Of a stretch of DNA of 64,000 bases, positions 44,239 through 64,000 are shown piece after piece. Position 1 is the first letter of the stretch; every line of letters begins with the position of its first letter. Source of the stretch: Elusimicrobia bacterium HGW-Elusimicrobia-3. GTDB lineage: Bacteria; Elusimicrobiota; Elusimicrobia; Elusimicrobiales; UBA9959. The notes below the pieces were generated by a model. That model saw only the letters and a program-made list of their open reading frames with translations, made no database searches and was not told the DNA's origin. The translations under genes and the position numbers were made by a program. Location of the stretch: contig PHAL01000005.1 in assembly GCA_002840355.1 (NCBI GenBank), positions 1 to 64,000 on the forward strand, written 5' to 3'.

Positions 44239-47200
44239 TTAATGTATGACCGCCAGTTTCTTGGTCACCGATTTATTGCCGACCGAACTCTGCGCCTCCA
44301 GCCGGTAGACGTAAACGCCGCTGGCTATGCCCCGTACGTCCCAGGCGATCTCGGACGCCTGGCCAGCGGGGCAATCCGCTTTTTTCAGCGAGGCCACTTT
44401 CTCTCCGGCCACGTTGTAGACCTCCACCCTGACATAAGCCTTGTGCGCCACCCTGAACTTGAAGGTGACCGTATCCCCCCTGGATGGGTTCGGGTAGGTG
44501 TAAACCTCGTCGTCGGCGAACAGCGCGCCCGACGGCACGTATTCCATCACCCGGAAGATGGAGAAATGGGAGACTTCGGCGCTGACCTTTTTAGCGGCCG
44601 CGTCCACCGAGGAGGTATTCAGCATCACCCAGACCCCGCCGGTCAAAGTATAGACGCGCAGATTCTCCGTCTGCATGCCGGCCACGTCGGCGTCAGTATA
44701 GGGCAGGTGGATCAGCGCGGGGGCCACCAGGCGCGTGGCCGGGTTCTGGAACTTGACCTCGTAGATGATGTTCGTGGGGTTGGCCGGCGTGGTAGCGCGC
44801 GCGCGGAAGAGCGGCGCGTAGGTGACGGGGTCCAGGCGGGTGACCATGATCTTGTCGTTCTGCGAGGCCGAGGCGCCGGGCACCTCCACCTCCATGCCGT
44901 CGGCCAGGCGCACGACGCCGCCGCGCGAGGCGTCGAAGAAGCGCCAGTTGTCGGCCGAGACTCCGGAGGCCTCCGCGCTCAGGGCGGAGTTGTTAGTGCT
45001 GTCGAAAGCCGCTACGGCGTAGTAGTACCGGATATTCAGGCCGGCGGCCGGGTCGGTGTACGAGGCGAGGCCGGCCGCGACGGAAGCGTAGGGGGCGCTG
45101 GAAACATAGGAGCCGCCCAGGCCGCGGCGGTAGATCTTGTAGCCGTAAACATCCCCGGCTCCGCCGCCGTCGTCGGGAGAGAGGTACCAGGAGAGGACCA
45201 GGCTGCCGCCCTCGTCGCCGGGCGCGTCGGCCACGGCCAGGGCGGAGGGCGGCGCCGGCGGCACGTAGTCCAGCGAGCCCCAGGCCGCCGCCACGTTGGA
45301 GAGGGCCGCCGTGTTGCCGACCGGGTCCACCGCCTTTATGGCGAAATAATAGGTGACCCCGCCGAGCAGGCCGCCGGCCTCCATGGCCTCGGTTATGCCC
45401 GCCGGCCCGCCGGACGGACTGCTGCTGCCTGGCAGGGAATCGAAAGCGGCCCAGTCCTGGCCCGGATCGGTGGAGAACTTTAACAGGTAATGCGAAACCT
45501 CTCCGATGTCGCCGTCGTTGCCGGGCGCGGTCCAGGTGAGACCGGCGGAGCCGGGCGCCTGGCCTGGCCTGGCGGCCAGGTCGGAGATGGCCGCGGGCGG
45601 CACGCTGTCCCCGGAATTGTTCACCGCGGAGGCTTCAGCCTCGGCGGAAGGCGCGGATTCCACCCAGCCGTCCCAGGCCGTGACCGTGTAGACGAAGGTG
45701 GTCCCCGTGACCGCCGTATTATCGGTATAGGACAACCCGGCCGCGGAGGCGAGCAGCGAGGGGCCGTAACCGGCGTCCCTGTAGACGCGGTAGGACGCGA
45801 CGCCCGGCGACGGCGAGGCGGACCAGGCGAGGGCGATGGCGTTGCCGTTGTCGGCGGGCACGTCGGCGGCGGTCAGGCCGGAAGGCGGCTGCGGGGCGGC
45901 GTTGAGCCTGACCTGCACCTGGGCCGAGCCGTCATAACCCGACGGCGCGCTCTCCAGCGCCCTGAGCCGCAGCGTGTATACCCCGTTCTCCAGGCCGCTG
46001 ACGTCCCAGGCGGCCAGCGCCGCGCCAACGGCCGGCGAGGCCGTAGCGGCGGAACTGATGCGCGTCCACAGCGGGACTTCGCCGCCGGTGCTGTAGTCCA
46101 GCTCGTAACCGGTCAGGTCGGGGCTGTCGAAATAGCCGGAAACGGTGACCGTATCCCGCAGGATCTCGCCGGCGGCTGGCCGCGAGATGGCGGCGTGCCG
46201 GCCGGCCCTGAAACCGGTAACTCTTCCGGCGTAATTGGCGGCCACCACCAGGCCGTTGGAGACGGCGGGCGAGGAGTAGGATTCGCCGGAGATATCCAGG
46301 TCCTCCAGCTGCACGCCGGAAGAGCTGACCACGAGCAGCCTGCCGCCCGGCGTGGCGGCGAATATCATTTCATTGGCCATAGCCGGCGAGGCCAGCACGC
46401 CGACCGGGGAGACCCCGCCCAGCGTGACGGACGAGGGCCAGACGGCGGCCAGCGTGGCCGAAGAGAGCGCCGCCAGCCTGGCCCCGTCCTCCGAGGCCTC
46501 GGCCGCGCCGGCGACGAAGAACAAAGTGGTCCCGTCGAACACAGGGGAGCCGGCCTGCGTCCAGGGGCCGATCTTGGTCAGCGCCGGCGAGATGGCCAGC
46601 TGGGACCAGTCGGCCAGCGAGCGCAGCTGCGCACTTTTTTCGTCGCGGCCGGGCAATGCGTACAGTGAACCGCTCGAGACAGCTACGGCGTTCTGGCCGA
46701 AGGAGCCCAGCGTGGAATAGGCGGCCCAGCGCGGGACCAGCGTCAGGGCGCCGAGGGCGTGAATGCTGCCGTCATTGGAGCCGAAATATACGTAGGCCCC
46801 GTCCGTAGACGGGGCGGAATCCACCGGCTGGGCGGCCTGATAGGAACCCAGCAAGGCCCCGGTGGCCGCGTCGTACATCTTCAGTTTGTTTTCAGGAGAG
46901 CCCGTCCCCACATACACCCGCCCGTTCAGTACCAGCGGCGAGGAGGCCGAAGCCGCCCTGAGGTCGGCTATCCAGCGCGGGGCGCCCGTCAGCCTGTCCA
47001 CGGCGTACAGGCGGCCGCCCCTGCAGGTGGCGTACACGGCGGAGCCTGAGACGGCCGGGGAGGAATCTACCCAGCCCGCCGTCAGCCGCTCCCAGAGCAG
47101 CGCGCCCGTGGCAGCGTCCAGCGCGTAGAGCCTGTTGCCGCGCGTGCCGAAATAAACCCTGCCGTCGTATATCACCGGGCCGGATACGGTGCCGCCGGGC

Positions 47201-47406
47201 GCCGTGAACTCCCAGGCCTTGGTCAGCGGGGGCGCGGCCTGCTCCAGGGCGTGGCCGGTGCGGCCCTCGTTGCCCATGAACATGGGCCAGTCGGCGGCGG
47301 GAGCCTGAGCGGCCAACAGGCAGAGCGCCAGGACGCAAATCAGCGGCTGCCCCGGAATTTTCCGGAGCGCGTTTTTTCTCCCGACCGCGGCTTTCGTTCT
47401 GTTCAT
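44239..47406 (-). CDS. PQQ-type beta-propeller / FN3 surface protein with FlgD-like (T9SS type A-like) C-terminal domain
   Basis: Propeller repeats (VYFGTRGNRLYALDAATGALLWE), FN3 modules, C-term TYPNPSRGDTVTFKFRV...VYNVAGEKVASL...GVYVYRLEA. Confidence 0.88.
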   Translation of the reverse strand: MNRTKAAVGRKNALRKIPGQPLICVLALCLLAAQAPAADWPMFMGNEGRTGHALEQAAPPLTKAWEFTAPGGTVSGPVIYDGRVYFGTRGNRLYALDAATGALLWERLTAGWVDSSPAVSGSAVYATCRGGRLYAVDRLTGAPRWIADLRAASASSPLVLNGRVYVGTGSPENKLKMYDAATGALLGSYQAAQPVDSAPSTDGAYVYFGSNDGSIHALGALTLVPRWAAYSTLGSFGQNAVAVSSGSLYALPGRDEKSAQLRSLADWSQLAISPALTKIGPWTQAGSPVFDGTTLFFVAGAAEASEDGARLAALSSATLAAVWPSSVTLGGVSPVGVLASPAMANEMIFAATPGGRLLVVSSSGVQLEDLDISGESYSSPAVSNGLVVAANYAGRVTGFRAGRHAAISRPAAGEILRDTVTVSGYFDSPDLTGYELDYSTGGEVPLWTRISSAATASPAVGAALAAWDVSGLENGVYTLRLRALESAPSGYDGSAQVQVRLNAAPQPPSGLTAADVPADNGNAIALAWSASPSPGVASYRVYRDAGYGPSLLASAAGLSYTDNTAVTGTTFVYTVTAWDGWVESAPSAEAEASAVNNSGDSVPPAAISDLAARPGQAPGSAGLTWTAPGNDGDIGEVSHYLLKFSTDPGQDWAAFDSLPGSSSPSGGPAGITEAMEAGGLLGGVTYYFAIKAVDPVGNTAALSNVAAAWGSLDYVPPAPPSALAVADAPGDEGGSLVLSWYLSPDDGGGAGDVYGYKIYRRGLGGSYVSSAPYASVAAGLASYTDPAAGLNIRYYYAVAAFDSTNNSALSAEASGVSADNWRFFDASRGGVVRLADGMEVEVPGASASQNDKIMVTRLDPVTYAPLFRARATTPANPTNIIYEVKFQNPATRLVAPALIHLPYTDADVAGMQTENLRVYTLTGGVWVMLNTSSVDAAAKKVSAEVSHFSIFRVMEYVPSGALFADDEVYTYPNPSRGDTVTFKFRVAHKAYVRVEVYNVAGEKVASLKKADCPAGQASEIAWDVRGIASGVYVYRLEAQSSVGNKSVTKKLAVIH

Positions 47407-47435
47407 ATACTGTCTCCCGCTAACCGCCCGGGGCG

Positions 47436-50400
47436 TTACGGCCCCACGTAAATCGTATACAGTCTCCCATCGGCGGAACCCACTGAAATGGTCCGCGTAT
47501 CCATGTCCGCCACCGGGTCGGCGCGCACCGGTCCGCCAGTAGTCACGGGCCAGCCGGTGCGCAACTGACCGGTATTAGCGTTGACGCCGTATATCCTGCC
47601 GTCGTCGCTGCCGAAATAGACATAGTCCTCGCCCGCGCCCAGCCCCATGTAGCCGGCCGGCGCCAGCACCGGTGAGGAACGTATGGCTCCGCCGGCCTGG
47701 AAGGACCAAACCAGCGCGCCGGTGCCGGCGTTGAGCTTGTAGAGCCTGCCGTTATCGGCCCCGAAGAACACGTACTTGGTGCCGCCCAGCGTCCAGAGGA
47801 AAGGAGAGGAGTAGATCGGAGAACCCGTGTCATAGTCCAGCCAGCCGCTCATCGCGGTCATGTTGCCGGAGTTTATCGCGTAGATCTTGCCGCCGGTGGA
47901 AGTGATATAAAGCGCGTTGTCCGGGCTGGCCACGTAGGCGTCGAAGTAAGGCGAGGACTTGACCGGCCCGCCGGTGACGAAAGTAGTGTTGGAGGTGCCG
48001 TCGCCGGTCTTGAGGCTGATTATCTTGCCGTCCTCCAGGCCTACCCAAGCGGTGGCCACGGTTGCCCGCTCGTCCACCGAGGGAGTGCCGGCGGGCGGCG
48101 CGGTCACGGCGGACGAGAAGGTCCAGCCGGAGCAGGACTGGCCGTCGGACCGATTGAGGCAGTGCACCTTGCTGTCCTCGGTCGGGATGTAGAGCCTGGC
48201 CGCGGTGTTGACGATCGAGACCGCCCTGGCGCCCAGCGGAGTCTTCCACTCCTGCGCGACGGAACCGCCGTCGTCGCGCAACTTGTAGACATCCCCGTTC
48301 TCTCCGGTGAAATAAAGGTGTACCGAGCCGCCTTCCTCCTGCGGTTCCGAGGGACTGACCGCGAGCCCGGTCAGCGGGGAAGTGACGAAGGTCCAGAGAG
48401 GGGCTCCGGTGGTGCTGACCGCTACCAGCGTGCCGTCGGTGGAGGGCACATAGGCCCTGGCTATCGGCAGCAGCGCCTCGCCGTAGAAGGTGATAGCGCC
48501 CGTTATCGGCGAGGAGGACTCGGAAACGTAAGGCCAGTCAGTGGCCGGCGGCGGCAGGGCCGGGGCGATGACGGTGAACGAGGCCGTGTCCACCTGCGCG
48601 CCCGGGGTGAAGTCCTGGCCGAGCAGGCCGGAGGCGTCGCGCAGGCGCGCGGAGGACGGGGCCAGGCTCACCCTGAAGGTAGCCGGCGTCTTGGAGGAAG
48701 CGTTCTGCGTGGTCACGAAGACTATATAGAAAGCGCGGGTGGAGCCGGCCGCCACAAAAGAGGCGTCCAGCCCGGCGGCGGTCACGGTCAGCGTGGAGAG
48801 GCCCGCTCCGTCCAGCGTTATGGCGGCCATGGGCACCCAGGCGGCCGTGGCCACGTCGATGGCCGGCTCGTAGGTGCCGGACAGGCCCGTGGAGGTGGAG
48901 TCGGCCACCAGCAGCACGGCGTCGAACAGCGCCCCGGCCTCGGCGGTGGTCAGCGGCGTAGCCAGGTCCTCCCTGAACAGGGTGAAGGCCACGGTGGCTA
49001 TCTCCACGCCGTTGAAGCCGGCGGGCGAGTTATTGGACAGGTCCAGGCGCAGGGCCGAGGCGCGGCTGTCGTCGTTGACCAGCGTGGCGGCGGCGGGGCC
49101 GGCGGCCGAGGCCGAGTGCACGGAGGCGTCGTAGGCCACCGAGGCGATGACCACCTGCGGCGCCGAGGACGGGCCGTTGCCGGAATTCAGTATGAATTTA
49201 TAATAAGCGCCGGAGACAGGGGCCTGGCCGTCCTGGTCGTAGAACTGCAGGCCGAATTGTTCCGTTGTCTGCTGCGCCAGCGAGGCCAGGTCGAAACCCG
49301 TGTCCTGCAGGCGGTAAATATGCGGTGAGCCGGGGTCGGCCGCGCCGCCGGAGCGGGACAGGACGATGTTGTTGCCGCGGCCGCCGGAGGCATCCTCGCC
49401 CAGCGCCAGACGCAGCGGGAAATTGCGCGACAGGTAGCGCGGGCTGGCGGCGGGGTCGGGGTAGGAGAGCGTATTGGCCGCGGCCAGGCCGGCGTTGTTG
49501 TTGCGCGAGACCGGCGTGGGAGAGCCGGCGGCCAGGAAATCGGCGGAATCGACGCCGCTGTGCGCGCCCTCGGCGGGCCCGCGGTGAGCCGGACTGCCAG
49601 GTGACCTGGTTCACCGTGGAGCCGCTGGAGTTCTCCAGCGCCAGGAAGTCCCCGCCGTCCGCCAGGCCAGCCGCGCCGAACACGGCGGCGTAGGCCAGCG
49701 CGTCGGCGCTCAGCGAGGAGCCGTCCAGCGCGGTATAGTCCAGCGGATAGATCTTCCTGTTGAACCGGAACACCAGGCCGGCCGCGGAGGAAGCGGCGTT
49801 GCGCAGGGCGTAGCCTTGCAGCGTGACCGTGGAGAAGGTGGCCGAGCTGTAGAGCTCCACGAACTCGGAGAGGAGCGAGCCGTAGGCCACCTCGTTTATG
49901 GTGTAAGGGTCGGTGGACACGGAATTGAAATAGCCGGGCGTCGGAGTAGGGTCTATCTCGAAGTAGTCCGGGTGGCCGTCGCTGACGCGCGCGAAGGACT
50001 GGCCGGGCGACAGCGCGCCGGGGCCGGGCCACTGCACCTGGTCCGTCAGGCCGCCGGAAGCGTCGAGCAGGCGCACGTGGTAGCCCTGCGCGGCGTTGAG
50101 GTCCAGCGCCAGGCCGCTGACGAGGAAAGTGGACATCGCGTTTACGTACTGGCCGGCCTGGCCGGTCCAGAGCGTGCTCGCCGATCCGCCCAGAGCGATG
50201 GTGTTCTCCACGTAGTCGAGCCGCCAGCCGGTCAGGGGCACCGTGCTCTGGGAATTATTATAGAGCTCCAGCCAGTCGGCCGCGGCGGACGCGCCCGAGG
50301 GGTAGACCTCGTTGAGGACCAGCGCCGCCGGCGAGACCACGCGGGGGTAGACCGGGTAGTACTCCAGCGGCACGCCGTCGCCCTTCACCAGCCTCAGGCA

Positions 50401-53400
50401 GTAGATCGCGCCGGGCAGCATGCCGTTGTCCTGCAGCGCCAGGTCCCACATGCCGTCCCTGTTCCGGGCGATGCCGGAGACTGAATTCGAGAAACCGCTG
50501 GATTCCGCGTAGACCTGGTTGAGGCTGGCCTGCACGCCGTGCTGGGGGTCCGCCGCGTTGGCGGTGAGCGTGGCCCTGTCGGCCGGGGCGTTATTCTTGA
50601 AAGCTATGGCGGTGAGGGCCGTCACGTCGGTCCAGGCGGCCGGGCTGCCGTTGGAGGGCGCCGCGCAAGTGCCGTCGCCCTGGCCGGCGAACTGCAGCTT
50701 GAAACTCTGCCCGGAGACGGGCAGGTCTACCTGGCCGATATTCACCAGCGCCCTGAGGCGGAAAGCGGCCCCGGCGGCCGGCAGCGCGGCCAGCACGTCC
50801 TGCGCCGCCAGCGGGGCGCCCACGTCGGTGGTGTCGGTATTGGCGAAGAAGCGGTAGGCGCTCTGTTCGAAGGTGGTGGTGGGCGGCGCGGGCCAGAAGA
50901 CGAAGGAGTAGCCGCCGGCCAGGGCGGAGCCGAGGTTGGGCTCGAGGGCGGCGCCGCCTTCCGTATTGGTCCAGGTGAAGGCCGCGGCGGCGTTCATGAC
51001 CAGCCGCTTGGCGAACAGGTCGGCGTTGGAATCCGCCAGCGTCAACACCAGCCTGTCCCGGTTAACCGGGTCCTGCTCGAGGTCGTAATAGCGCTGCGGG
51101 TTGGCGAAGAGCGGGGAGGGCGTGAAGTCGGCCTGCGCCGTGAAAACACCGCCGTTGCCTACGTACCAGCCGACGTTGGTGGCGGCGGCGTCGTTATAGG
51201 CGATGACGCTGCGCGTGGCGGTGCCTGAGCTTATCCACGCAACGGCCGCCAGCCTGGTGCCGGCCAGCGGAGTCTGGGCCGTGGTGTCCAGGTTGGGAGT
51301 ATTGGTCCAGGCCGAGCCGTTCCAGTAGCCGGCCTGCAGGTCGGAGCCTGCGTTGCCGATGGAGGCGAACACCATTTCATCCGAGGCCGGGTTCGCGGCC
51401 AGGTCCAGGTTGGTGGCGTCGTCGAGGAAGGCCGGCGCGTTCACCGGCCCGCCCCAGGCGTGCTCGGGGCTGCCGCCGTTCCACGCGGCGGTGGCGTAGC
51501 GCACGCCGTTGACGCCGTCGGCGCCGGCCGAGTGGCCCCAGGCCACCAGGACGTCGCCGGACAGGGATTCGGTCTCCACGGCGAAGCTTTCCGAGTCCTG
51601 CGCGGCCGCGACGGTCTCGAGCGAGGTTTCAAGCGCCGCGGCGGGCTCGTTCTCCCAGGCCGCGCCGTTCCAGACCATGGCCGACAGGTCGGAGTTGGAG
51701 TCGGCCCAGACGGCGGCGATATTGTCGTAGTCGGCCCGGCGGTCGGGGGCCATCTTAACCCAGTGCACCGCGCCGGCGGTGCGCAGCGGGTCCAGCGTGG
51801 CGGGAGCCGTCCAGTTGGCGGCGCCGCAGGCGGCCCCGCCGGGCTTGGTGCGGTAGCCCAGCTCGCCGGTCCCCGTAACGCCGCGCGAGTAGAGCACCAT
51901 CACGTCGCCGCTATTGGTCTCGAAAGCGATGTCGAAGCGGCGCGTGGCGTCGGCGCCGCCGACGCTCTGCGTCCACTCCTCGTACCAGTTGGCGCCGTCG
52001 GTGCAGAGCACGCGCAGCGTGCCGCTCTTGACGTAGGCGGCCACGGCCTCCTGCTTGGTGGTCAGCGGGTTGGTGCGCACCGTGAACAGGACCCCGGCCG
52101 CGCCCGAGACCGTCTGGCGCACGGCGCTGAAGGAGTTGGCGGCGCTGTCGTAGTCGCGGAACTGCGGCGTGCTGTTGCCGGCCTGGCCGTAGAGCAGGAC
52201 GCCGTCGCCAGCCTTATGAAGCGCGGCCAATATCAGCGTCTTCACCACCCCGAGGCTCACCCAGTCGGTGGAGGTACCGTTATTATGCTCGGCTCTCACC
52301 CTGGCGTAGTAATAAGTATCGCTGCTCAGGCCGCTGAACGTGGCCATCGGGCCGGCGGCCGGGGCCGTGGTCAGGATCACCTGGTTGGTCACCCCGTCGT
52401 TGAAATTCAGCGCCGTAGAGACCTGCACCGTGTACCTGGTCGAGACCAACGGGTTGGAGTTGGCCCCCCAGGCGAGAGTGAAACCGCTGTCCGTGACCGC
52501 GCCGAAGGGGCTGGCGGGAGCCGTCGGGGTATTGGCCAGCGTGGAAGTGGCCGGGTAAACCGCCCAGGGGCTCTCGTCCCCTGGCCCGCCGGCTTTCACG
52601 AACAGGTAATAAGTGCTGTTGAGCGCGAGACCGGTCAACTCGGCCGAAGTCCCGGCGGTGACGCTGGACGCGTAGACGGGCGACGGGGAGACGCCGGAAT
52701 TGACCGAAGCCGCCAGCGTGTAGCCGGTGGCGCCGGGCACCAGCGACCAGGACGCCGTTATCGAATAATCGGAGACCTGCGTTACCGGCAGCGGGACGGG
52801 CGCAGCGAGGCCCAGGGTGCGGGTGGAGCCCAGCTGCGCGTAGGCGCTGTATACGCCGTTGAGGTTCAGGGCGCGCACGCGGAAATAGTAGTCGCGGTTG
52901 GAGAGCAGGCCGGAGAAGGTGTAGGCCGCGCCGCCGGCCGGCGCCGTGGAGGCGGTCTGACCGGCCGCGCCGGCGTTGTAGTCCTGGGCCGTGGATACCT
53001 GCACCTGGTACACGGTGCCGGCCGGGTTGGCATTGGCGTTCCAGGCCGCGGTGAAACCGCCGGAAGTTACGGCGCTGAAAGTGGAGACGGCGCTCAGCGG
53101 GAGATTCGCCAGCGTGGCTGTGCCGGCCGGGGCGGTCCAGGCCGTCAGCTCGCCGTTCTGGTTGACGGCGGCCACGGCGAAATAACGGGTGGCGTTGGGC
53201 GTCAGCCCGGCGCTGCTCAGGTAGAGGTTGTAAGTATCGGAGCTGGTCACCACCGCCCCGGCGGGATTCAGCGGGTCCGCCGCGGTGGACACGCGCACGC
53301 GGTAGCGCGTGCCGGGATAGCGGTTGCCGTTGGCCGACCAGTTCACCTGTATGGCCGACGGCCCTACGCCGGTAAAGCCCGAGAAGACCGGCGGGTAGGC

Positions 53401-56400
53401 TACCAGCGTGGCCGTGCCGGCCGGCGCCGAGTAGGCGGTGGAGAGCCCGTTTACGCCCAGGGCAGCGGCCCTGAAATAATAGGTGGTGTCGGCCGCCAGG
53501 CCGGCGCTGCTCAGGAACAGGTTATAGGTCTCCGAGCTGGTCACTACCGCGGTACCGGGGCTCAGCGGGTCGGCCGCCGTGGAGACCAGCACGCGGTAGC
53601 GCGTGCCGGGGTTGCGGTTGCCGTTATGCGCCCAGTTGAACTGCAGGGCGTCCGCCCCCACGCCGGAGAAACCGGAGGAGACGGGGACATTGGCCGGGGT
53701 GGCCGTGGCCTGCACGGCGGTGTAGGCCGTCAGCACGCCGTCCTTGTTCACGCCGGCCGCGCGGAAGTAATATGTGGTGTCGGCCGCCAGCCCCGCCGTG
53801 GTCAGCGAGACATTGTAGGTATCGGAGGAACTGAAAGCCGCGGCGCCCGGCGCCAGCGGGTCCGCAGCCGTGGAGACCAGCACGCGGAACAGCGTGCCGG
53901 GATAAGCGTTGCCGTTGGCCGAGAAATCGAACCGCGCCGTGCCGGCCGCCACCCCGGCGAAGGAGGTGAACAGGGGCGGGGCCGCGAGCAGCGTGGCCCT
54001 GGGCTGGAAAGCGTACCAGTCTCCGGTGACATACTCCCCGTTGGCGCGGACGAACAGGTAATAGGTTTCGTCGGCGTCCAGGAGGGACACGTAAGCCTGA
54101 TTCCCGTCATTTATCGTTTCACTGGAGGAGACAATGGAGAGCGGCGGATTATCCGGCGACAAGGACGCGACCAGCATATAGCCGGTTGCCATGGACACCA
54201 CTTCCCAGGTGGCGGCCAGCGAACTGACATGCACGCCCGTTATCTCGCCCGAGGCGGGGCTGCCGATAGAACCGGGATCCAGCGTCCGCGCGCTGAAAGG
54301 CGGGTCGGACCAGGCCGAAGCTACGCCGTTACTGTTTACCGCCCTGGCCCTGAAATAGTAGTCGGTGCTGGGCGACAAGCCGGGGGTGCTCAGATGCAGG
54401 TTGTAGGTGTCAGTGGAGGAGACCGCGGCCCCGCCCGGCGCCAGCGGATCGGCGGCGGAAGAGGTCAGCACCCTGTAGAGCGTGCCGGGCTCGCGGTTGC
54501 CGGCGGCGGACCAGTTGAGTTGCATGAAATCAACCGTCACGCCGGTGGTGTAGAACCCGGACGGGACATTGGCCAGCGTGGAGGTGGCGGAGACGGCGGT
54601 CCAGGCCGTCAGCACGCCGTTCTTATTCACGCCGGCCGCCCTGTAGTAATAGGTAGTGTCGGCGGCCAGCGCGGTCCGCGCCAGCGAGAGGTTATAGGTG
54701 TCGGAAGAGGCCACCGCCGCCCCGCCGGGACTTAGCGGATCCGGCGCCGTGGAAGAGAGCACCCGGTACAGCGTGCCGGGATAAGCGTTGCCGTTGGCCG
54801 TGAAATTGAACTGCAGGGCGCTTTCCGCCACGCCGGTGAAGCCGGCCGGTATCGGCGGGAAACCAAGCAGGGTGGCCGTGCCGGCCGCGGCCGTGTAGGC
54901 CGTGGGCACGCCGTTCTTGTTCACGCCGGCCACCGAGAAATAGTAGGTGGTGTCGGCGGCCAGGCCCGCCGTGCTCAAGCTGGTATCGTAGGTCAGCGAG
55001 CTGACGGCCAGGGCCCCGCCCGGGTTCAGCGGGTCGGCCGCGGTGGACGAGACCACGCGGTACAGCGTGCCGGCCGCGTTGCCGTTAGCCGAGAAAGAGA
55101 AGCGCAGCGAGCCGGCCGCCACTTCTGAAAAACCGGTGAAGACCGGCGCGGCGCCCAGCAGGGTGGCCGTGCCGCGGGCGGAGGTATAAGCCGTGGCCGC
55201 CCCGTTATGGTTGAGGGCGGCCACGCGGAAATAGTAAGTGGTGTCGGCGGCCAGGCCTGCTGCGCTAAGCGAGAGGTCGTAGGTTTCGGCCAGGGCCACG
55301 GCGGCGCCGCCGGGGGCGGCCGGGTCCGGCGCCGTGGACGAGAGCACCCGGTACAGCGTGCCGGTCGGGTTGCCGCCCGAAGTCCAGTCCAGCCCCACCG
55401 CCGCCGCCGAGACCGCGGTGAAACTCCCGAAAGCCGGGGCATAGGCCAGCGTGGCCGTACCGGCGGCCGCCGTGTAGGCCGTGCTCACGCCGTTCTTGTT
55501 CACGCCGGCCACCCGGAAATAATAGGTGGTGTTCGCGGCCAGTCCGGAGGAAGCCAGATAGAGGTTATAGGTGTAGGAGGAAAGCGCCACCGCCCCGCCT
55601 GGGTTCAGCGGGTCCGGCGCGGTAGAAGAAACGACGCGGAACAGCGTGCCCGGATAACTGTTGCCGTTCGCCGACCAGTTGAACCGGATCGCGCCGGTAT
55701 CGATGGCGTCAAAAGAGGTGAAAAGCGGCGGCGCCGACAGCAGCGTGGCCGTGGCGGCCGCCGCCGTATAGGCCGTGGGCACGCCGCCATGGTTGAGGCC
55801 GGCCACCCGGAAATAATAGGTGGTGTCTCCGGCGAGCCCCGACGTGCTCAGGAAAGTATTATAGGTGAGCGAACTTACCGCCACCGCCCCGCCGGGACTC
55901 AACGGGTCCGGCGCCGTGGAGGAGACTACCCGGTACAGGGTGCCGGGGTCGGAGTTGCCGTTGGCCGCCCAGTCGAACAGCATGGAGCCAGCGGCCACGC
56001 TGCCGAAGCCGGAAGCGAGCGGGGCGAAGGCCAGGAGCGTGGCCGTGCCGGGGTGTACCTGCCAGGCGCCGGACACGCCGGGGGCGTTGCTCCTGACGTA
56101 AAGGTAGTATGTAGTGTTGGGTGAGAGCGTGGGCACGGAGAGGGTGGCCGACAGATTCCCGAGCGTGTCGCTGGAGGCGTAGACCGGCTCCGGCTCGGTC
56201 CCGAAATTTTCCGAAGCGGCCAGCGTGTAGCCGGTGGTCTCGCTGACCAGGGGCCAGGAGGCCGAAACCTGGCTGGCCGTGACGCCAGTCACCGAGAGCG
56301 AAGCCGGCCGGGCCGGGTACAATTTCTCCAGGATCTGCACCCAACTGTCGCCCTCCGCGCTGCCCGTCGGGCCGCCTACGGTAACGAAGACGCTCCGGTT

Positions 56401-59400
56401 GTTGGCTATGGTGGTGGCGTCGCCGTCGTCTATATACAGTCGCAGGGCCAGCCTGTCGCCGTTATTCAGGGCGGTGGGCACCGGCTCAACGGTCCAGGTC
56501 TGGGCGGCGTCCGCCACGGTCAGCTCGGTGCGCGGGATCAGCGCGGCGGCCACCGTGGACAGGATCACGCCGGAATTGTCCGTGCGGTAGAGCACCCCCG
56601 TGATAGTGGCGTTGGCCTGCACGGCGCTTTCGCGGGCCCGGATATTAAAAGTAACGCTGCTGACTATGGTCACGGCGTCGAGGGGCATGGAGTACCAGGT
56701 TTGCGGTGCCCCGCCGGCCGTTTTAGTGATCTGCAGGGCGCTGGTGGGCGGCGTCACGGGCCCCGAGAGCGTGTCCTTGGTGTAGGTCACCGCGGCCGCG
56801 CCGCGCAGCGCCGAGAGCCGCCGCTCTTCGCCGGTGTCGCCGGCCGGGTTGGCCGTGGAAATGTCGTCGAGCAGGTAGAGCTTGGTCACCACCTGCAGCG
56901 TGCGCTCAGACTGTGCCGCGCTGTAGGCGGTGGGCACGCCGTTCTTGTTCACCGCCGCCAGCCTGAAATAATAGCGGGTATTGGTGACCAGGCCGGAGGA
57001 AGAAAGGGACAGGTCGTAAGTGTCCTCGTAAGTGACCGCCGCCCCGCCGGGAGCCAGCGGGTCGGGCGCGGTAGAGACGGCCACCCGGTACCGGGTGCCG
57101 TCCGCGTTGCCGTTGGCGGTCCACAGCACCCGGATGGCATCCGTCTGTATGTCGCTGAAACCGGAGAACATCGGCGGATAGGCCGCCAGGGTAGCGGTGC
57201 CGGCCGCGGCCGTGTAGGCCGTCTCTACCCCGTCGCCGTTCACGGCGGCCACGCGGAAATAGTAGGTAGTGTCGGCGGCCAGGCCGGCGCTGCTGACATA
57301 GAGGCCGTAGGAAGCCAGCAGGGTCGCCGCCGCGGCGCCCGGGTTCAGCGGGTCCGGCGCCGCGGACACCGCCGCCCGGTACAGCGTGCCGGCCGGGTTG
57401 CCGTTGGCCGTCCAGTTGGCGCCGATGGCCGACGCCGTGATCCCGTCAAAATAGGAGAAGAGCGGCTGCCTGGCCAGCGTGCGCGCCCGCTGCGGCGCGG
57501 TATAGGCGGTAGGCTGGCCGTCGCGGGCCAGCGCGGCCACGACGAAATAATAGGCCCTGTCCACGGCCAGGCCGGAGGAGCTGAGATAGAGGTTGTAGGT
57601 ATCGGACGAGGTGACGGCCTCGGCCCCGGGGTTCAGCGGGTCCAGGGCCCGCGACACCAGTACGCGGTACAGCGTCCCGGCCGGGTTGCCGTTAGCGGCC
57701 CACATGAAATCCGCCGAGGAATCGGTGACGGCGCCGAAGCCGGGGAAGGACGGCGCCTGCGGCAGGGTGGGATTAGCCTGCGTAGCCGTCCAGGCGGTCA
57801 GCACCCCGTCGTTATTGAGCGCCGCGGCCCTGAAATAGTAAGTGGTGTTGGGCGCGAGGCCGGACGTGGAGAGCGAGAGGTTGTAGGTATCCGAGGAGGC
57901 CACCGGCGAGGCGCCGGGGCTAAGCGGGTCCGGGGCGACCGAGGAGAGTACCCGGTACAGAGTCCCGGCCGGATTGCCGTCGACCGCCCAGGCGAAGGTC
58001 ATGGCGTCGGTGCCGGTGCCGGAGAAGCCGGAGAATACCGGCTGGCCGGCCAGCGTGGAGGTGCCGCGGGAGGCCGTGTAAGCCGTGGTCACGCCGGCTT
58101 TGTTGATGCCGGCTATCCTGAAATAATAGGCGGTATTGGCCGCCAGCGAGGAGGAGGTCAGTGACAGGTTATAGGTATCCGACGAGACTACCGCCGCGCC
58201 GACGGGAGACAGCGGGTCCGGCGCGGTGGACGACAGCACCCGGTACAGCGTGCCGCCGGGATTCCCCCCGCCCGACCAGGACAGGCTCACCGCTCCGGCC
58301 GTAGGCGGGCCGAAAGAACCGAAGGCCGGGGCGTACTGCAGCAGCGTGGCGGCGGGATCGTATTTGCTCCAGGCGCTGACCACGCCGGCGCCGTTGGCGC
58401 GCACGAACAGGTAGTAGACCGTGTCCGGGGTCAGGCCCGGCAGTTGAGCGGAGGCCAGCGCGCCTACGGTGACGGAGGCAGCGAGGGCCGTAGGAGGGTC
58501 GTCGGGGTAGAGCGAGGCGGCCAGGGTGTAGCCGGTGGCGGCCCCCACGAGGGACCACGAGGCCGTTACGGAAGAGACATGCGGCGTCAGCGCGCCGGCC
58601 AGCGGGGCGGCCAGCGTGCCAGGCGCCAGCGTGGTGGTTGAAGCTATGGCCGACCAGGCCGTGACGATGCCGTTATTGTTGACCGCCCTCGCTCTGAAGA
58701 AATATTCGGTGCTGAAGGTCAGGCCCTCGGTGGAGAGATAAAGGTTATAGGTGTCGGAGCTGGTCACCGCCGCGCCAGCCGGCGCCAGCGGGTCCGCCGC
58801 CGTGGAGACCATCACACTGTAGAGAGTACCGGGACCGCCGGCGGCGTTCCACTCCAGGCGCGCCTTGTCGGTGGCGGTCTCGGTGAAGTTCAGGCCCGAG
58901 GGCACGGCCGCCAGGGTGGAAGTGCCGGCCCCGGCCGTATAGGCCGTCAGCGCCCCGTCCTTATTTACGCCGGCGGCGCTGAAATAATAGGTGGTGTTGG
59001 AGGCCAGGCCGCCGGCGGCCAGCGAGACGTTATAAGTATCCGAGGAGGACACCGCCGCCCCGTCCGGCAGCGGCGGTTCGGGTGCGGTGGAGTAGAGCAC
59101 CCGGTACAGCGTGCCGGGATAGGCGTTGCCGTTAGCCGAAAAATTGAACTGGAGCGAGGTTTCGGCCGCGCCGCTGAAACTGGCGAAGGCGGGAGCGTAG
59201 CTCAGCAGCGTGGCGCGGTCCGCCGGGGGCGTGTAGGCCGTCGCCACACCGTTGCGGTTGATCGCCGCCGCCCGGAAATAATAGCGGGTATCGGGAGCCA
59301 GCCCGGCTGAAGAGAGGAAAAGGTTATAGGTATCGGAAGAAGCCACCGGCGCCCCGGCGGGTGACAGCGGGTCGGGGGCGGTGGAGGAAAGCACCCGGTA

Positions 59401-61059
59401 CAGCGTGTCGGCAGGGTTCCCGTCCGTCCAGGCGAAGCGCATGGAAATATCCGTCTCCTCGCTGAAAACGGGATAGGAGGGCCCGGTAGCCAGAGTCGCG
59501 GTGGATACCGGAGAGAAGTAAGCCCCCTCCACCCCGTCGCCGTTAACGCCGGCGGCCCTGAAATAGTAAGTGGTATTGGACGCCAGGCCGGCGGTGCTGA
59601 AAGCGAGATTATAAGTCTCATGCTGGCTGACCGCCGCGCCGCCGGGAGACAGCGGGTCGGCCGCCGTGGAAACCAGCAGCCGGTACAGCGTGCCGGCCGG
59701 GTTGCCGCCTGAAGTCCAGGCGGCGGTCAGGCCGCTCTCGGAAATGTCCGAAAAGGGCGCGGCCGCCGGCATGCCCGCCAGCGTAAAGGTCGAAACTATG
59801 GGCGTATAGGCGGTATACGCTCCGCCGTGGTTTACGGCCGCCACGCGGAAGCGGTAGGCGGTATTGGCCGTCAGGCCGGCCGAAGAAAGAAAAGTGTTAT
59901 AGGTGAACGAGGAGGTGACCGGCGCGCCGAAAGGCGACAGCGGGTCGGCCGCGGTGGACATGACCACGTGGTACAGCGTGGCCGCGTGGTTGCCGTTGGC
60001 GGCCCAGTTGAACCGGGCGGTGTAGGAAGAGATATTAATGAAGTCGGTGAAGTACGGCGCGTAAGCCGGGGTCACCTGCACCGGGAAGGCCGACCAGGAG
60101 CTGGAGGCGCCGGGCCCGTTGGTGCGGACAAAGGGATAATAGGTGGTATTGGGGCTCAGCGCCGGGCTGTTGAGCAGGGCTGAATTTTCCGAAGTAGTAA
60201 AGGAGGCGTAAACGGGCGACGGGGCCGCCCCGGGATTCACGGAGGCGGCCAGCGTATAGCCGGTGGCGCCCTCCACCAGCGTCCAGGAAGCGGAGAACCC
60301 GGTCTGTGTCAGGCCGGTCACCGAGCCGATGACGGGCCGGGCCGGGGCCAAATTCTCGACCGTGCTGAACCAGCTGTCGCCGCTGGCGGCCGGGGTAGGG
60401 CCGTCTATTGTCGCGGTCACGGTACGGCCGGCGCCCATGGTGCCGACGTCGTCGATATATACCCGCAAGGCCAGCCTCTCGCCGTTTAGCAGCGCCGTGG
60501 GTACCGGGGTCATGGTCCAGGTGATCGGCCCAAGCGAAGTCCCCAGCTCGGAAGCCGGGGCGGCCACCGCGGAGATAACGGATTGCACCGCGCCCGAAGC
60601 GCTGACCCGCAGCAGCTCGGCGGCAAGGCCGGCGTTGGCCTGATTGTGGCTTTCCATGGCCCAGATATTGAAAGTAATGTTGCCGCTGATGGTGACGGCG
60701 TCGAGCGGGTCGGTATACCACGCTACAGCGGTGCCGCCCTCTATCTTCGTGAGCTGCGTGGCGGTAGTGGGGGGCGTGACAGGGCCCGCCACGGTGCTTT
60801 TAATATAGGTAGCCACGGTAGAACCGCGCAGGCGGTTCAGCCGCCGCTCATCGTCGCCGCCGGGATTTATCGAGGAGACCGTGTCGCTCAGGAATACGGT
60901 GCTGGCCGACCTGGCGACTACGGGGAATTGCGGCAGCAGGGCGGGCAGCAGCAGGAGCCCCAGCCAGGCGCGGCGCAGGCTTTTCAGGGCAAAAGGGAAG
61001 GCGCGCGCGATTCCGCCGCTTTTTTCACCTCCGTTATGACTTTCGCCCCGGGATATCAT
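47436..61059 (-). pseudogene. Giant secreted FN3-repeat / lamin-tail / PQQ-propeller protein, reading frame interrupted once near 49585
   Basis: ORF 49198-61059 and ORF 47436-49154 (open further upstream) are two frames of one protein; lamin-tail domain continues in the second frame. May be a sequencing indel rather than a true pseudogene. Confidence 0.8.
52235..60345 (-). repeat. Tandem FN3-like coding repeats, about 26 units of roughly 90 aa
   Basis: Recurring NPxGTLYRVLVSTAPDPLSPGGAAVxSSDTYNLSLSSxGLAxNTTYYFRVAAVNxNGVxTAYT. Confidence 0.9.
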
Positions 61060-61074
61060 AATTTATCTCTCGCT

Positions 61075-61515
61075 TTACTCCTCGGCGGCGCCGCCGCCGC
61101 AGGTCTGGACGCCGCGATTCTTGCAGCCTTTCTTGCGCTCTTCTTCCTTCATCATCTCTATGATGTCCTGCACGGTCAGCCCCACCAGCCAGTGGTTCAC
61201 CTCGGCGCGCAGCGTCTCATAAAGCCTGTTGGGCACCTGGGCCTTTTCGGCCTTGGGCGCGCCGTTCACGGTAAAGGCCTCCATCAGCTGCCAGACGCTG
61301 ATGCTGTCCAGGTCCTTGTGCAGGCGGTAGCCGCGGCCTTTCTGCGACTCCACGAAGCCGGCGTGCACCAGGGCCTGCAGCACCTTGTTGCAGTACGGCG
61401 CGGGCAGGCCCTGGAAGCGCGAGATCTCCGCCACCTGGTTCCAGCGGCCGCCGCCGTTCTGCCCGAGATAATGCAGGCAGGCCAGCCCGTATGCGAGAGT
61501 GCGGTTCATTCTCAT
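61075..61515 (-). CDS. Rrf2-family transcriptional regulator
   Basis: MRMNRTLAYGLACLHYLGQNGGGRWNQVAEISRFQGLPAPYCNKVLQALVHAGFVESQKGRGYRL. Confidence 0.9.
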   Translation of the reverse strand: MRMNRTLAYGLACLHYLGQNGGGRWNQVAEISRFQGLPAPYCNKVLQALVHAGFVESQKGRGYRLHKDLDSISVWQLMEAFTVNGAPKAEKAQVPNRLYETLRAEVNHWLVGLTVQDIIEMMKEEERKKGCKNRGVQTCGGGAAEE

Positions 61516-61649
61516 ATAGACACCATGCTGACTGAAATTTTATAAGCCGCGCCTGTTTCCCCGGCGAACAGCAGTCATTGGACAAGAAGTATCCAATGGC
61601 TCCCGGCAAAAAAACGGCACCGAAAAGCATGCCGTCCATTCGCACTTAT

Positions 61650-61677
61650 AGTATAACAGCCCTATTACGGCAGTCAA
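61650..61677 (-). promoter_or_regulatory. Sigma-70-like promoter for rrf2-giant surface gene operon
   Basis: Minus strand TTGACT-N16-TATACT. Confidence 0.65.
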
Positions 61678-61688
61678 TAGACAAATTA

Positions 61689-62738
61689 TCAGCCCCGGCC
61701 GTGCTTTTTTTTGAAAGCCGCAGCCATCTCGCAAGCGGGCCGATTCGGGGCGAAAGCGTCCCCCTCCTCCAGCAGGCTTATGCCCGGGCAGCGGCTGCAG
61801 AATTCGATATCGGGACAGCCGGCGCAATCTTGCAGGTCCTTAAGGCCGGCCCGGCGCCATTTTTTCAGCCAAGCCGAGCCCTTCCACAGGGCAGAGAATT
61901 TCTGGCGGGCCAGGTTGCCCAGTTTGACCGGCAGCTGCAGACAGGGAAACAGGGTTCCGGCAGGGTCTACAGCGCAGACATTGCGGCCGGCGCCGCACAG
62001 GAAATCCCAGGCGTCGGCGCTACCGGGAACCGGGGCGGCGGGCCCCGCCTCCGCTCCGGACGGCGAAAGGTGTGACAGAGCCCGCCTCAACTCCGGGCCG
62101 GAGAGGCGGTATTTAAGGGCGGCCCTGTCTCCGTCGTTGGCCGGCGCTATGACGGGGTCGAAAGAGATGCCGCAGCCTTCTTTCCGGGCCAGGCGCTTCA
62201 AAAATGCCGCCTGCCCGGAGTTCAGGTTCATCAGCGGCACCTTTATCTTTACCGCTACCCCGGCCGCTTTGAGCAGGCGGGCGGCAGCCAGGCTGCCGCC
62301 AAAGGAACCTTTCAGGCCTGTGAGGCCGTCATGCACCTCCGGGCGGCCGTACAAGCTGATCTCGAATGCCGAAACTCCCGCCTGGCGGAATTCCCGGGCG
62401 CGGGCGGGCGTCAGGCCCAGGCCGGTGGAAAACACCCTGACGTCAAAACTCAATGATTTAGCGAACCGGCACAACTCGGCCAAGTCCGGCCGCAGCAGCG
62501 GCTCGCCCCCGGTGAAAACGAGGTAAAGCCCCCCGGCGCGGGCCAGTTGGCGCAGTATCTGCTCCCATTGGGCGGTGGAGAGTTCGCGGCCGGGGCGCGC
62601 GCGGCCGGCGGTTTCGGGCAGGTAGCAGTGGCGGCAGGAGAGCGGGCAGCGGCGGGTCAGTTCTACGGTAACCGAAATTGGAATATTTTTATCCAGCGTG
62701 AGCGCGTTGAGCCGCGCTGAAGGCAGGCAGTCGGGCAT
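61689..62738 (-). CDS. Radical SAM/SPASM peptide maturase (PqqE-like)
   Basis: ELTRRCPLSCRHCYLPE; FTGGEPLLRPDL; C-terminal CAVDPAGTLFPC..CAGCPDIEFCSRCPG. Confidence 0.92.
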   Translation of the reverse strand: MPDCLPSARLNALTLDKNIPISVTVELTRRCPLSCRHCYLPETAGRARPGRELSTAQWEQILRQLARAGGLYLVFTGGEPLLRPDLAELCRFAKSLSFDVRVFSTGLGLTPARAREFRQAGVSAFEISLYGRPEVHDGLTGLKGSFGGSLAAARLLKAAGVAVKIKVPLMNLNSGQAAFLKRLARKEGCGISFDPVIAPANDGDRAALKYRLSGPELRRALSHLSPSGAEAGPAAPVPGSADAWDFLCGAGRNVCAVDPAGTLFPCLQLPVKLGNLARQKFSALWKGSAWLKKWRRAGLKDLQDCAGCPDIEFCSRCPGISLLEEGDAFAPNRPACEMAAAFKKKHGRG

Positions 62739-63061
62739 CAGTTGAAGGGATTGGCGGCGTACAAGGCGCGCCGCAGCCTGGCGTACCACAGACCCGGCAA
62801 GCCTGCGGCCAGCGGACCGCCGCCGAGCACCGTGCCCCGCACCTCGGCCCAGGAGACATAGTGCGGTTCCAGCCGTCCGGCGTCGTCCACGAACACGGCG
62901 CCGCCCGGGCAAACCTCGGCCACCCGGTGCAGCAGATTGCGTCCGCCGTAGACATAGACCGCGCAATCCCCGGCGCCGGGGCGCCCCGGGGCCACGGCCA
63001 CGGCCTGCCCCGGACGGAACAGGGGCAGCATGCTGGAGCCTTCCAACCTGAATACCTTCAT
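62738..63061 (-). CDS. S24/S26-like (LexA/signal peptidase-fold) protein
   Basis: MKVFRLEGSSMLPLFRPGQAVAVAPGRPGAGDCAVYVYGGRNLLHRV; Ser in GSSM motif; start trimmed; ATGA overlap with neighbours. Confidence 0.75.
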   Translation of the reverse strand: MKVFRLEGSSMLPLFRPGQAVAVAPGRPGAGDCAVYVYGGRNLLHRVAEVCPGGAVFVDDAGRLEPHYVSWAEVRGTVLGGGPLAAGLPGLWYARLRRALYAANPFN

Positions 63062-63204
63062 CAGGAAAATTTCTTCAGGGATTTGCAGGCCAGCTGGCTG
63101 ATAGGGCCGGTGATGCATTTGCCGCAGGCCAGCGCCGCGGTCTCGAAGATCTTCTCGGTCTTCATGGCGGGCTTCGCGTAGGTTTTTTTCTTCTTCATAT
63201 TCAT
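63061..63204 (-). CDS. Putative RiPP precursor peptide, 47 aa
   Basis: MNMKKKKTYAKPAMKTEKIFETAALACGKCITGPISQLACKSLKKFS; start overlaps stop of PqqD-like gene (ATGA), stop overlaps start of S26-like gene (ATGA). Absent from ORF track (too short). Confidence 0.8.
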   Translation of the reverse strand: MNMKKKKTYAKPAMKTEKIFETAALACGKCITGPISQLACKSLKKFS

Positions 63205-63467
63205 TTCTCCGCTTTGGCTATCAGTCCGGCGGCCAGCAGTTCTTTGATAAAGGCCGCCGTGTCGGCCGCGGCGGCAGAGGCGTCTATATCGTACTCGGCC
63301 GCGATGGCGGCGGCTATGGCCGCTTCGTCCCTGCCGGCGGCCAGGCCTTCCCAGACCAGGGCCGCTGCGCCGTTAAGTTCGTGCATCCTGGAGCCGGCGG
63401 CGTCCACGATGAACAATTCCCCGGCTATGCGCCGGAAGGCGAGGTCTTTTCTCAGTATAAGCTTCAT
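63201..63467 (-). CDS. PqqD-family peptide chaperone (RRE-like)
   Basis: MKLILRKDLAFRRIAGELFIVDAAGSRMHELNGAAALVWEGLAAG. Confidence 0.88.
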   Translation of the reverse strand: MKLILRKDLAFRRIAGELFIVDAAGSRMHELNGAAALVWEGLAAGRDEAAIAAAIAAEYDIDASAAAADTAAFIKELLAAGLIAKAEK

Positions 63468-64000
63468 ACCAACTCCAGGAAAGCGGCGTCCTTTTTAGAA
63501 AATTCCAGGCTGGCAAAAGAAATTTTACCCAGCAGCGCGGCGGCGTTGTTCAGCACCAGGGACGAGATATCCCGACCTTTTTCAAAATTCAGCAGGCAGC
63601 GCAGCAGCAACTTCAGGGCCTCGCTCCCGCCGCAGGGGGCAACCCTGTTCCCCCTGCTCTTCTTAAGCAGGTATATCCCGCCCAGCGGCCAGGAACCCGG
63701 CCGCCCGTCCGCGCGCATTTCGCCCCAGAACGGCGAACCGTGTACCGTGTAACGACCACCCTCCCGGCGCAGCAAATTAATCTCGTCGCTGATAACTTCG
63801 CAACCGGAGCCGGCGGCCAATTTGGAAAGCGTGGATTTGCCCGCCCCGGACCGGCCCAGGAACAGGTAAGCCCTGCCCTTTTTCACCAGGCCGGCGGAGT
63901 GAAGCATAAAACCGCCCGAGCGCAGCAGCAAACTGCTTATCAAAGACCGCAGGAAAGCGTCCAGGCATTGCTCGTAGGGGGCGGCCGAGAGTTCTCCGGC
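63464..64000 (-). CDS. HprK-related kinase-like protein (N-terminus beyond window edge)
   Basis: MLHSAGLVKKGRAYLFLGRSGAGKSTLSKLAAGSGCEVISDEINLL; frame stays open to 64000. Confidence 0.8.
   Translation of the reverse strand, partial: AGELSAAPYEQCLDAFLRSLISSLLLRSGGFMLHSAGLVKKGRAYLFLGRSGAGKSTLSKLAAGSGCEVISDEINLLRREGGRYTVHGSPFWGEMRADGRPGSWPLGGIYLLKKSRGNRVAPCGGSEALKLLLRCLLNFEKGRDISSLVLNNAAALLGKISFASLEFSKKDAAFLELV

Follow-up and report, generated by a model that had tools for sequence, protein, structure and literature searches.

Near one end of the window (the whole stretch of 64,000 nucleotides that was analysed), a short open reading frame, 63061..63204 (-), lies between a PqqD-like gene and a gene for a small S24/S26-like protein, which raises the question of what peptide it encodes and what its neighbours would do with it. 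The preliminary description proposed a RiPP-type precursor, and our comparison bears this out: the peptide is kept beside homologous maturases throughout the phylum. The peptide quoted there is encoded exactly by this frame, which occurs in a single copy in the whole 2.88 Mb genome, and the neighbours are those it named, i.e., a PqqD/RRE protein upstream, a radical SAM/SPASM enzyme downstream and the small S24/S26-like protein in between (Pfam; S26 fold by model). Only one of the two claimed ATGA overlaps exists, at the upstream (RRE) junction (63201-63204); the downstream junction is TGATG, where the two genes share one base (63061), and TGATG recurs at 62738 between the S26 and radical SAM genes. 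That description did not include the HprK-like kinase, which lies just past the window edge, nor the FET leader motif common to linear polyphosphorylated peptides (LPPs), the invariant C-terminal Ser and the giant exported partner.

Translation from the first ATG gives 47 aa; the second ATG at 63198 appears the likelier start, giving 45 aa (MKKKKTYAKP...), because it has the better spacing to GGAG and is the start of most homologues (MKKKKxYxKP). The precursor (63061..63204, (-)) can be divided into the leader MKKKKTYAKPAMKTEKIFET and the predicted core AALACGKCITGPISQLACKSLKKFS. The predicted leader (63139..63198, (-)) carries YAKPAM (63163-63180), the predicted binding motif for the RRE, and ends in FET, where cleavage is predicted; its Tyr, Pro and Glu19 are invariant (55/55) and it resembles the LPP leader motif. 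In the predicted core (63064..63138, (-)), the cysteines C25, C28 and C38 are conserved, and K27 and the C-terminal Ser45 (codon 63064-63066) are invariant across the alignment of 55 versions. The window peptide had no match in NCBIfam or Pfam, its profile matched no solved protein chain, and an Rfam search of the cassette gave nothing. Single family members showed weak matches to SCIFF, ribosomal protein L40e and Mss4, and the defence-system library returned only weak generic radical SAM (viperin) and ATPase matches. A lipoprotein lipobox at ALAC was ruled out, as there is no hydrophobic region and the Leu is wrongly placed.

A peptide search of the phylum genomes (draft assemblies, probably metagenome-assembled) found homologues, 49-96% identical, in 54 of 341 Elusimicrobiota genomes at E <= 2e-6, spread over the window's own family and many further families and classes of the phylum. 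We looked for a lack of conservation next to homologous maturases and found the opposite, a peptide present in these 54 genomes with conserved gene order. The 55 distinct versions aligned have the common motif Y-x-x-P...E...L-x-C-x-K-C...C...S-COOH, in which the columns of Tyr, Pro, Glu, Leu, Cys, Lys, Cys and the C-terminal Ser are invariant; the third Cys is present in all 55, shifted one column by misalignment in one. Pairwise counts on 31 peptide-gene sequences gave a dN/dS of ~0.08; third codon positions varied at 38 of 39 sites, first and second positions at 15-16. On these counts the precursor evolves under strong purifying selection; conservation and dN/dS together rule out a random open reading frame. 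In the radical SAM tree f1 (0.98) and f19 (0.997) are monophyletic, which suggests largely vertical inheritance; the kinase tree is less clean. A scan of genome contigs with the radical SAM enzyme, which reaches close relatives only, returned records named Elusimicrobia or Elusimicrobiales and two named only 'bacterium', a plasmid search gave no match to peptide or kinase, and a search of IMG/VR gave no confirmed relative.

Nearly every peptide locus compared holds the same five genes together, encoding an HprK/PEPCK-fold kinase, a lasso/LPP-type RRE ("PqqD"), the precursor, the S24/S26 signal-peptidase-like protein and the radical SAM/SPASM enzyme. In the window's family the genes run HprK-RRE-PEP-S26-rSAM; the arrangement elsewhere is HprK-RRE-rSAM-PEP-S26, and PEP stands nearly always immediately before S26. 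By profile search, the kinase is present in 65 genomes of the phylum, comprising 52 of the 54 with the peptide and 13 of the 287 others (Fisher p 2e-46, not corrected for relatedness). In both peptide genomes without a kinase match (G111, G114), the peptide lies no more than about 0.9 kb from the end of its contig. Among the 13 kinase genomes without a detected peptide, contig ends interrupt the sequence in at least two (G105, G145); G142 (63% complete), G237 and G330 either are incomplete or lack the other cassette genes, and different HprK cassettes of the phylum are found among the other eight. Kinase, RRE and radical SAM genes form an operon separate from the peptide in G239, and the kinase stands alone on another contig in G329 and G107; that it is kept although separated argues for a functional link with the peptide.

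The discrete RRE (63201..63467, (-)) is PqqD-like, as previously described (Pfam PqqD 7.6e-17), but of the lasso/LPP rather than the PQQ type. In the profile ranking, TbiB1 (2.9e-14), LppB (9x8z; 8.7e-11) and TfuB1 (4e-10) came well before PqqD of PQQ (only 7.5e-5), which ruled out a PQQ-type PqqD. The RRE would bind the leader via YxKPx[I/L/M] and present the precursor. The leader here reads YxKPx[I/L/M]x[S/T]EKx[F/I/L]E[T]; compared with the LPP leader motif YxxPxVLxHQxIxFETxxS (Popov et al. 2026, PMC13381572), it has YxxPx[I/L/M/V] and [F/I/L]E[T], but the Pro-FET gap is two residues shorter and there is no HQ and no Ser3. In LPP biosynthesis, the leader is removed after F-E-T by LppS, a signal-peptidase-like protein with catalytic Ser/His/Asp, with the help of the RRE LppB (PMC13381572).

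The analogous enzyme here is predicted to be the S24/S26 signal-peptidase-like protein of 107 aa (62738..63061, (-)), with Ser10 as nucleophile, His45 and Asp59/60. Its S24/S26 sequence match is weak by itself (0.076), and its model (pLDDT 91) retrieved SPase I, LexA, UmuD and SipA in Foldseek with top E-values of 0.003-0.03 and probabilities near 1. Across 38 homologues the nucleophile is Ser or Cys, the His is invariant (38/38) and the Asp nearly so; the catalytic Ser is replaced by Cys (GGCM) in loci L053, L054, L056, L060, L062, L063, L065, L066 and L068, suggesting a nucleophile swap in several lineages of these proteins. By analogy with LppS, the protein would remove the leader probably after FET, leaving a core of about 25 residues. 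A cut at ALA|C would satisfy the (-3,-1) rule of signal peptidases, but mutation of FET in LPP showed that this motif matters (PMC13381572), and FET is therefore the favoured site. The shorter distance from Pro to FET and the only partly conserved T(-1), owing to which the cut could fall at ALA|C instead, count against the preferred reading.

The C-terminal part of the HprK-like peptide kinase occupies 63464..64000 (-) (weak NCBIfam matches to ScmC, 9e-9, and HprK_rel_A, 3e-7), and the gene runs past the window to contig position 64273, encoding 269 aa (L002:3465-4274). A close homologue, modelled with AlphaFold (pLDDT 91.8), had PEPCK and HprK/P as its best PDB matches; these belong to one known structural superfamily. 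The homologues conserve His, the P-loop and Ser-Asp-Glu; lasso kinases have Asp-Asp in place of the latter, a difference that weighs against the phospho-peptide reading. The candidate acceptor is the terminal Ser, found in 55 of 55 versions; all four TCN codons are used for it, then all three stop codons, and the preceding residue varies. That Ser is kept across four codons while its flanks vary indicates selection on the amino acid. PadeK, an HprK-like kinase, phosphorylates the C-terminal Ser of its own precursor (PMC9266682), and LppK, likewise HprK-like, (poly)phosphorylates a core Ser of LPP (PMC13381572). By this analogy, the kinase probably phosphorylates the invariant C-terminal Ser45 of the precursor. 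As BsfK illustrates, other kinases may choose another Ser, with the RRE assisting (PMC10368454); both the LPP kinase and BsfK act on core Ser3, so that the site can vary between kinases, which is a further point against the preferred assignment.

The phylum also harbours a second set of HprK and RRE cassettes (L090, L091, L093, L094, L095) with one to three radical SAM enzymes each. The precursors of the different HprK and radical SAM cassettes contain Cys, are otherwise unlike the window peptide, and end in Ser in five of six cases (L087 is the exception), which provides an independent hint for the proposed route. NTP_transf_5 occurs in L091 and L095 and S24-domain proteins in L090, L091, L094 and L095, and by these domain matches the neighbours of the second set are LPP-like; in G190, NTP_transf_5 is fused to a second RRE upstream.

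The radical SAM/SPASM maturase of 349 aa (61689..62738, (-)) carries CX3CX2C and SPASM-region Cys (Pfam radical SAM 1.9e-21, SPASM 5.6e-8), and together with the Cys-containing precursor it provides the pairing that is a feature of sactipeptides and ranthipeptides. Its nearest solved structures are SkfB (7e-28) and, closely behind, PqqE (1e-25). SkfB forms thioethers and PqqE a C-C bond, so their nearly equal closeness leaves the maturase chemistry undecided by sequence and counts against a firm assignment. The enzyme would modify the AxC-x-K-C...C core, most likely by Cys-derived thioether link(s), a step that is plausible and more weakly founded than the others.

We consider it roughly 70% probable that the locus holds a cassette for a phospho-peptide kind of RiPP (LPP/paeninodin), to which a radical SAM maturase has been added. 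The gene, its conservation, the gene order, folds, conserved catalytic residues and co-occurrence are direct observations, and RRE binding, the phosphorylation site and leader cleavage are predicted from characterised relatives; that the cassette works like phospho-RiPP biosynthesis of the LPP/paeninodin type is well supported. Common to it and LPP (PMC13381572) are the discrete RRE, the HprK-like kinase, the signal-peptidase-like leader peptidase (Ser/His/Asp) and, as a partial match, a leader with YxxPx[V/I/L/M], then FET; by sequence and model, the RRE, the kinase and a peptidase fold with Ser(or Cys)/His/Asp residues are all present here. In contrast to LPP, there is a radical SAM/SPASM maturase (radical SAM is not mentioned in PMC13381572) with a conserved three-Cys core, an invariant C-terminal Ser in place of Ser3, a giant protein partner, and a near-vertical distribution in Elusimicrobiota rather than a patchy one in Bacillota. 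The NTP transferase and MsbA-like transporter of LPP loci were not found among the window-locus neighbours examined. The cassette can be set apart from LPP on the absence of NTP transferase and exporter from the window locus and the partial motif match, its chemistry being predicted.

Phosphorylated lasso peptides of the paeninodin/pseudomycoidin type (PadeK, ThcoK, PsmK) resemble the cassette in their HprK-like kinase, B1-type RRE, [Y/W]xxP-type leader and C-terminal Ser, the phospho-acceptor there and present in 55/55 versions here. They differ in having the lasso cyclase (C) and B2 transglutaminase-type peptidase, neither of which recurs as part of the cassette across the loci compared, where the radical SAM enzyme and Cys core are found instead. 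The SkfA/SkfB sactipeptide system shares the closest solved radical SAM/SPASM maturase and a Cys-containing substrate; to our knowledge, it has no HprK-type kinase and no S26-type leader peptidase. The SynChlorMet (Scm) NCBIfam models likewise combine an HprK-like ScmC, which is the kinase's best NCBIfam match, a PqqD-like ScmD and the radical SAM proteins ScmE/F, but all matches are far below the curated cut-offs (ScmC 35 of 125 bits) and there is one radical SAM enzyme here, not two. In the literature outside subscription journals, we found no RiPP combining radical SAM and HprK. The phospho-RiPPs so far reported are lasso or linear peptides; joining the same trio of kinase, RRE and peptidase to a radical SAM enzyme would be new to RiPP biosynthesis, in a host phylum with little known natural-product chemistry.

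Other explanations must be weighed against the phospho-peptide reading. The three conserved Cys and SkfB as the closest solved maturase would suit a sactipeptide/ranthipeptide-type antimicrobial, i.e., a bacteriocin with Cys thioethers made by the radical SAM enzyme and an incidental kinase. We regard this as unlikely, given that the kinase is kept nearly 1:1 with the peptide, even in trans, and that the C-terminal Ser is invariant; a dN/dS of 0.08 is an unusual conservation for a bacteriocin core, the radical SAM tree mostly follows taxonomy with f1 and f19 monophyletic, and neither an immunity gene nor a dedicated exporter was recognised in the window locus. The strong conservation, the vertical-looking inheritance and the want of a recognised exporter would be expected of a redox-cofactor or carrier-type peptide (PQQ/mycofactocin-like), in which the peptide modified by the radical SAM enzyme would serve the cell as a cofactor and not as a product at the surface, and the enzyme does score high against PqqE and the mycofactocin maturase. 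The chances of this are low too, with an RRE of the lasso/LPP and not the PQQ type, no dehydrogenase-like gene standing out as a conserved neighbour (flanking genes are partly annotated) and a giant exported protein as the conserved partner outside maturation. The CxxC-type spacing and the weak single-member matches to L40e, Mss4 and SCIFF could point to a metal-binding regulator or partner with a CxKC...C site and no processed RiPP; this is very improbable for a peptide with a YxxP RRE motif in one cassette with an RRE, a leader peptidase and a radical SAM enzyme, and with a leader/core architecture including FET as in LPP.

In the phospho-peptide reading, the product probably works with the giant exported surface protein encoded beside the cassette. 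Tentatively, and with considerable doubt, we hypothesize a vertically kept, phylum-wide RiPP that combines radical SAM crosslinking, (poly)phosphorylation of the C-terminal Ser and signal-peptidase-type leader removal, and serves not as an antibiotic but as a dedicated partner of a giant surface protein (up to about 10,000 residues), e.g., for its export, anchoring or assembly. For LPPs and paeninodins, too, the role has yet to be settled; the LPP authors suggested a capsule or biofilm link (PMC13381572). With its unusual conservation and its tie to a giant exported protein, the present peptide makes it possible to test whether a RiPP can have a structural or physiological role. In the window, the neighbour downstream of the cassette is a giant exported fibronectin-III protein of at least 3953 aa (49198..61059, (-)). 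Most loci with enough downstream sequence have a very large secreted protein there. An aligned giant family that begins TRIKTVE[W/Y]NFGGYY after the signal peptide occurs in 25 genomes, one copy each, with open frames of up to about 10,480 codons (about 10,000 residues), and the cassette or its kinase is present in 25/25 of them (Fisher test not corrected for shared ancestry). The S26-like domain also occurs as a fusion, with this giant frame in G323, G327 and G328 and with a BNR/Vps10-repeat protein that has a FlgD-like end in G333. Against the preferred reading, common descent may account for part of the adjacency of giant proteins within a single family, and the window locus is without a recognised dedicated exporter.

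In loci L050, L051, L058 and L064, from three other families of the phylum, one reading frame joins the S26-like domain, a membrane-spanning/signal segment and a giant secreted protein. The giant fibronectin-III frame of the window seems to continue in another frame at 47436-49610 (beta-propeller sequence), and the overlap at about 49.2-49.6 kb suggests a frameshift or an assembly error. The gene at 44239-47574 (-) encodes a further secreted protein of the beta-propeller/fibronectin-III kind, with a Por_Secre_tail sorting domain at its end.

An Rrf2-family regulator (61075..61515, (-); Pfam Rrf2 2.5e-18) is a conserved downstream neighbour in the family, as seen from gene order. The perfect palindrome ATTGGA-n9-TCCAAT lies upstream of it (61577..61597, no strand assigned); the 2.88 Mb genome holds no second copy, and the same palindrome occurs in 20 other loci, near an Rrf2 gene where checked; it is a probable dedicated Rrf2 operator. 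A promoter-like site is located at 61650-61677 (-). Directly upstream of the kinase, past the window end (L002:4256-8605), the window's family has prepilin-like genes, two of them with the N-methylation motif and one encoding 842 aa with CarboxypepD_reg domains, and elsewhere their place is taken by an HD-domain protein.
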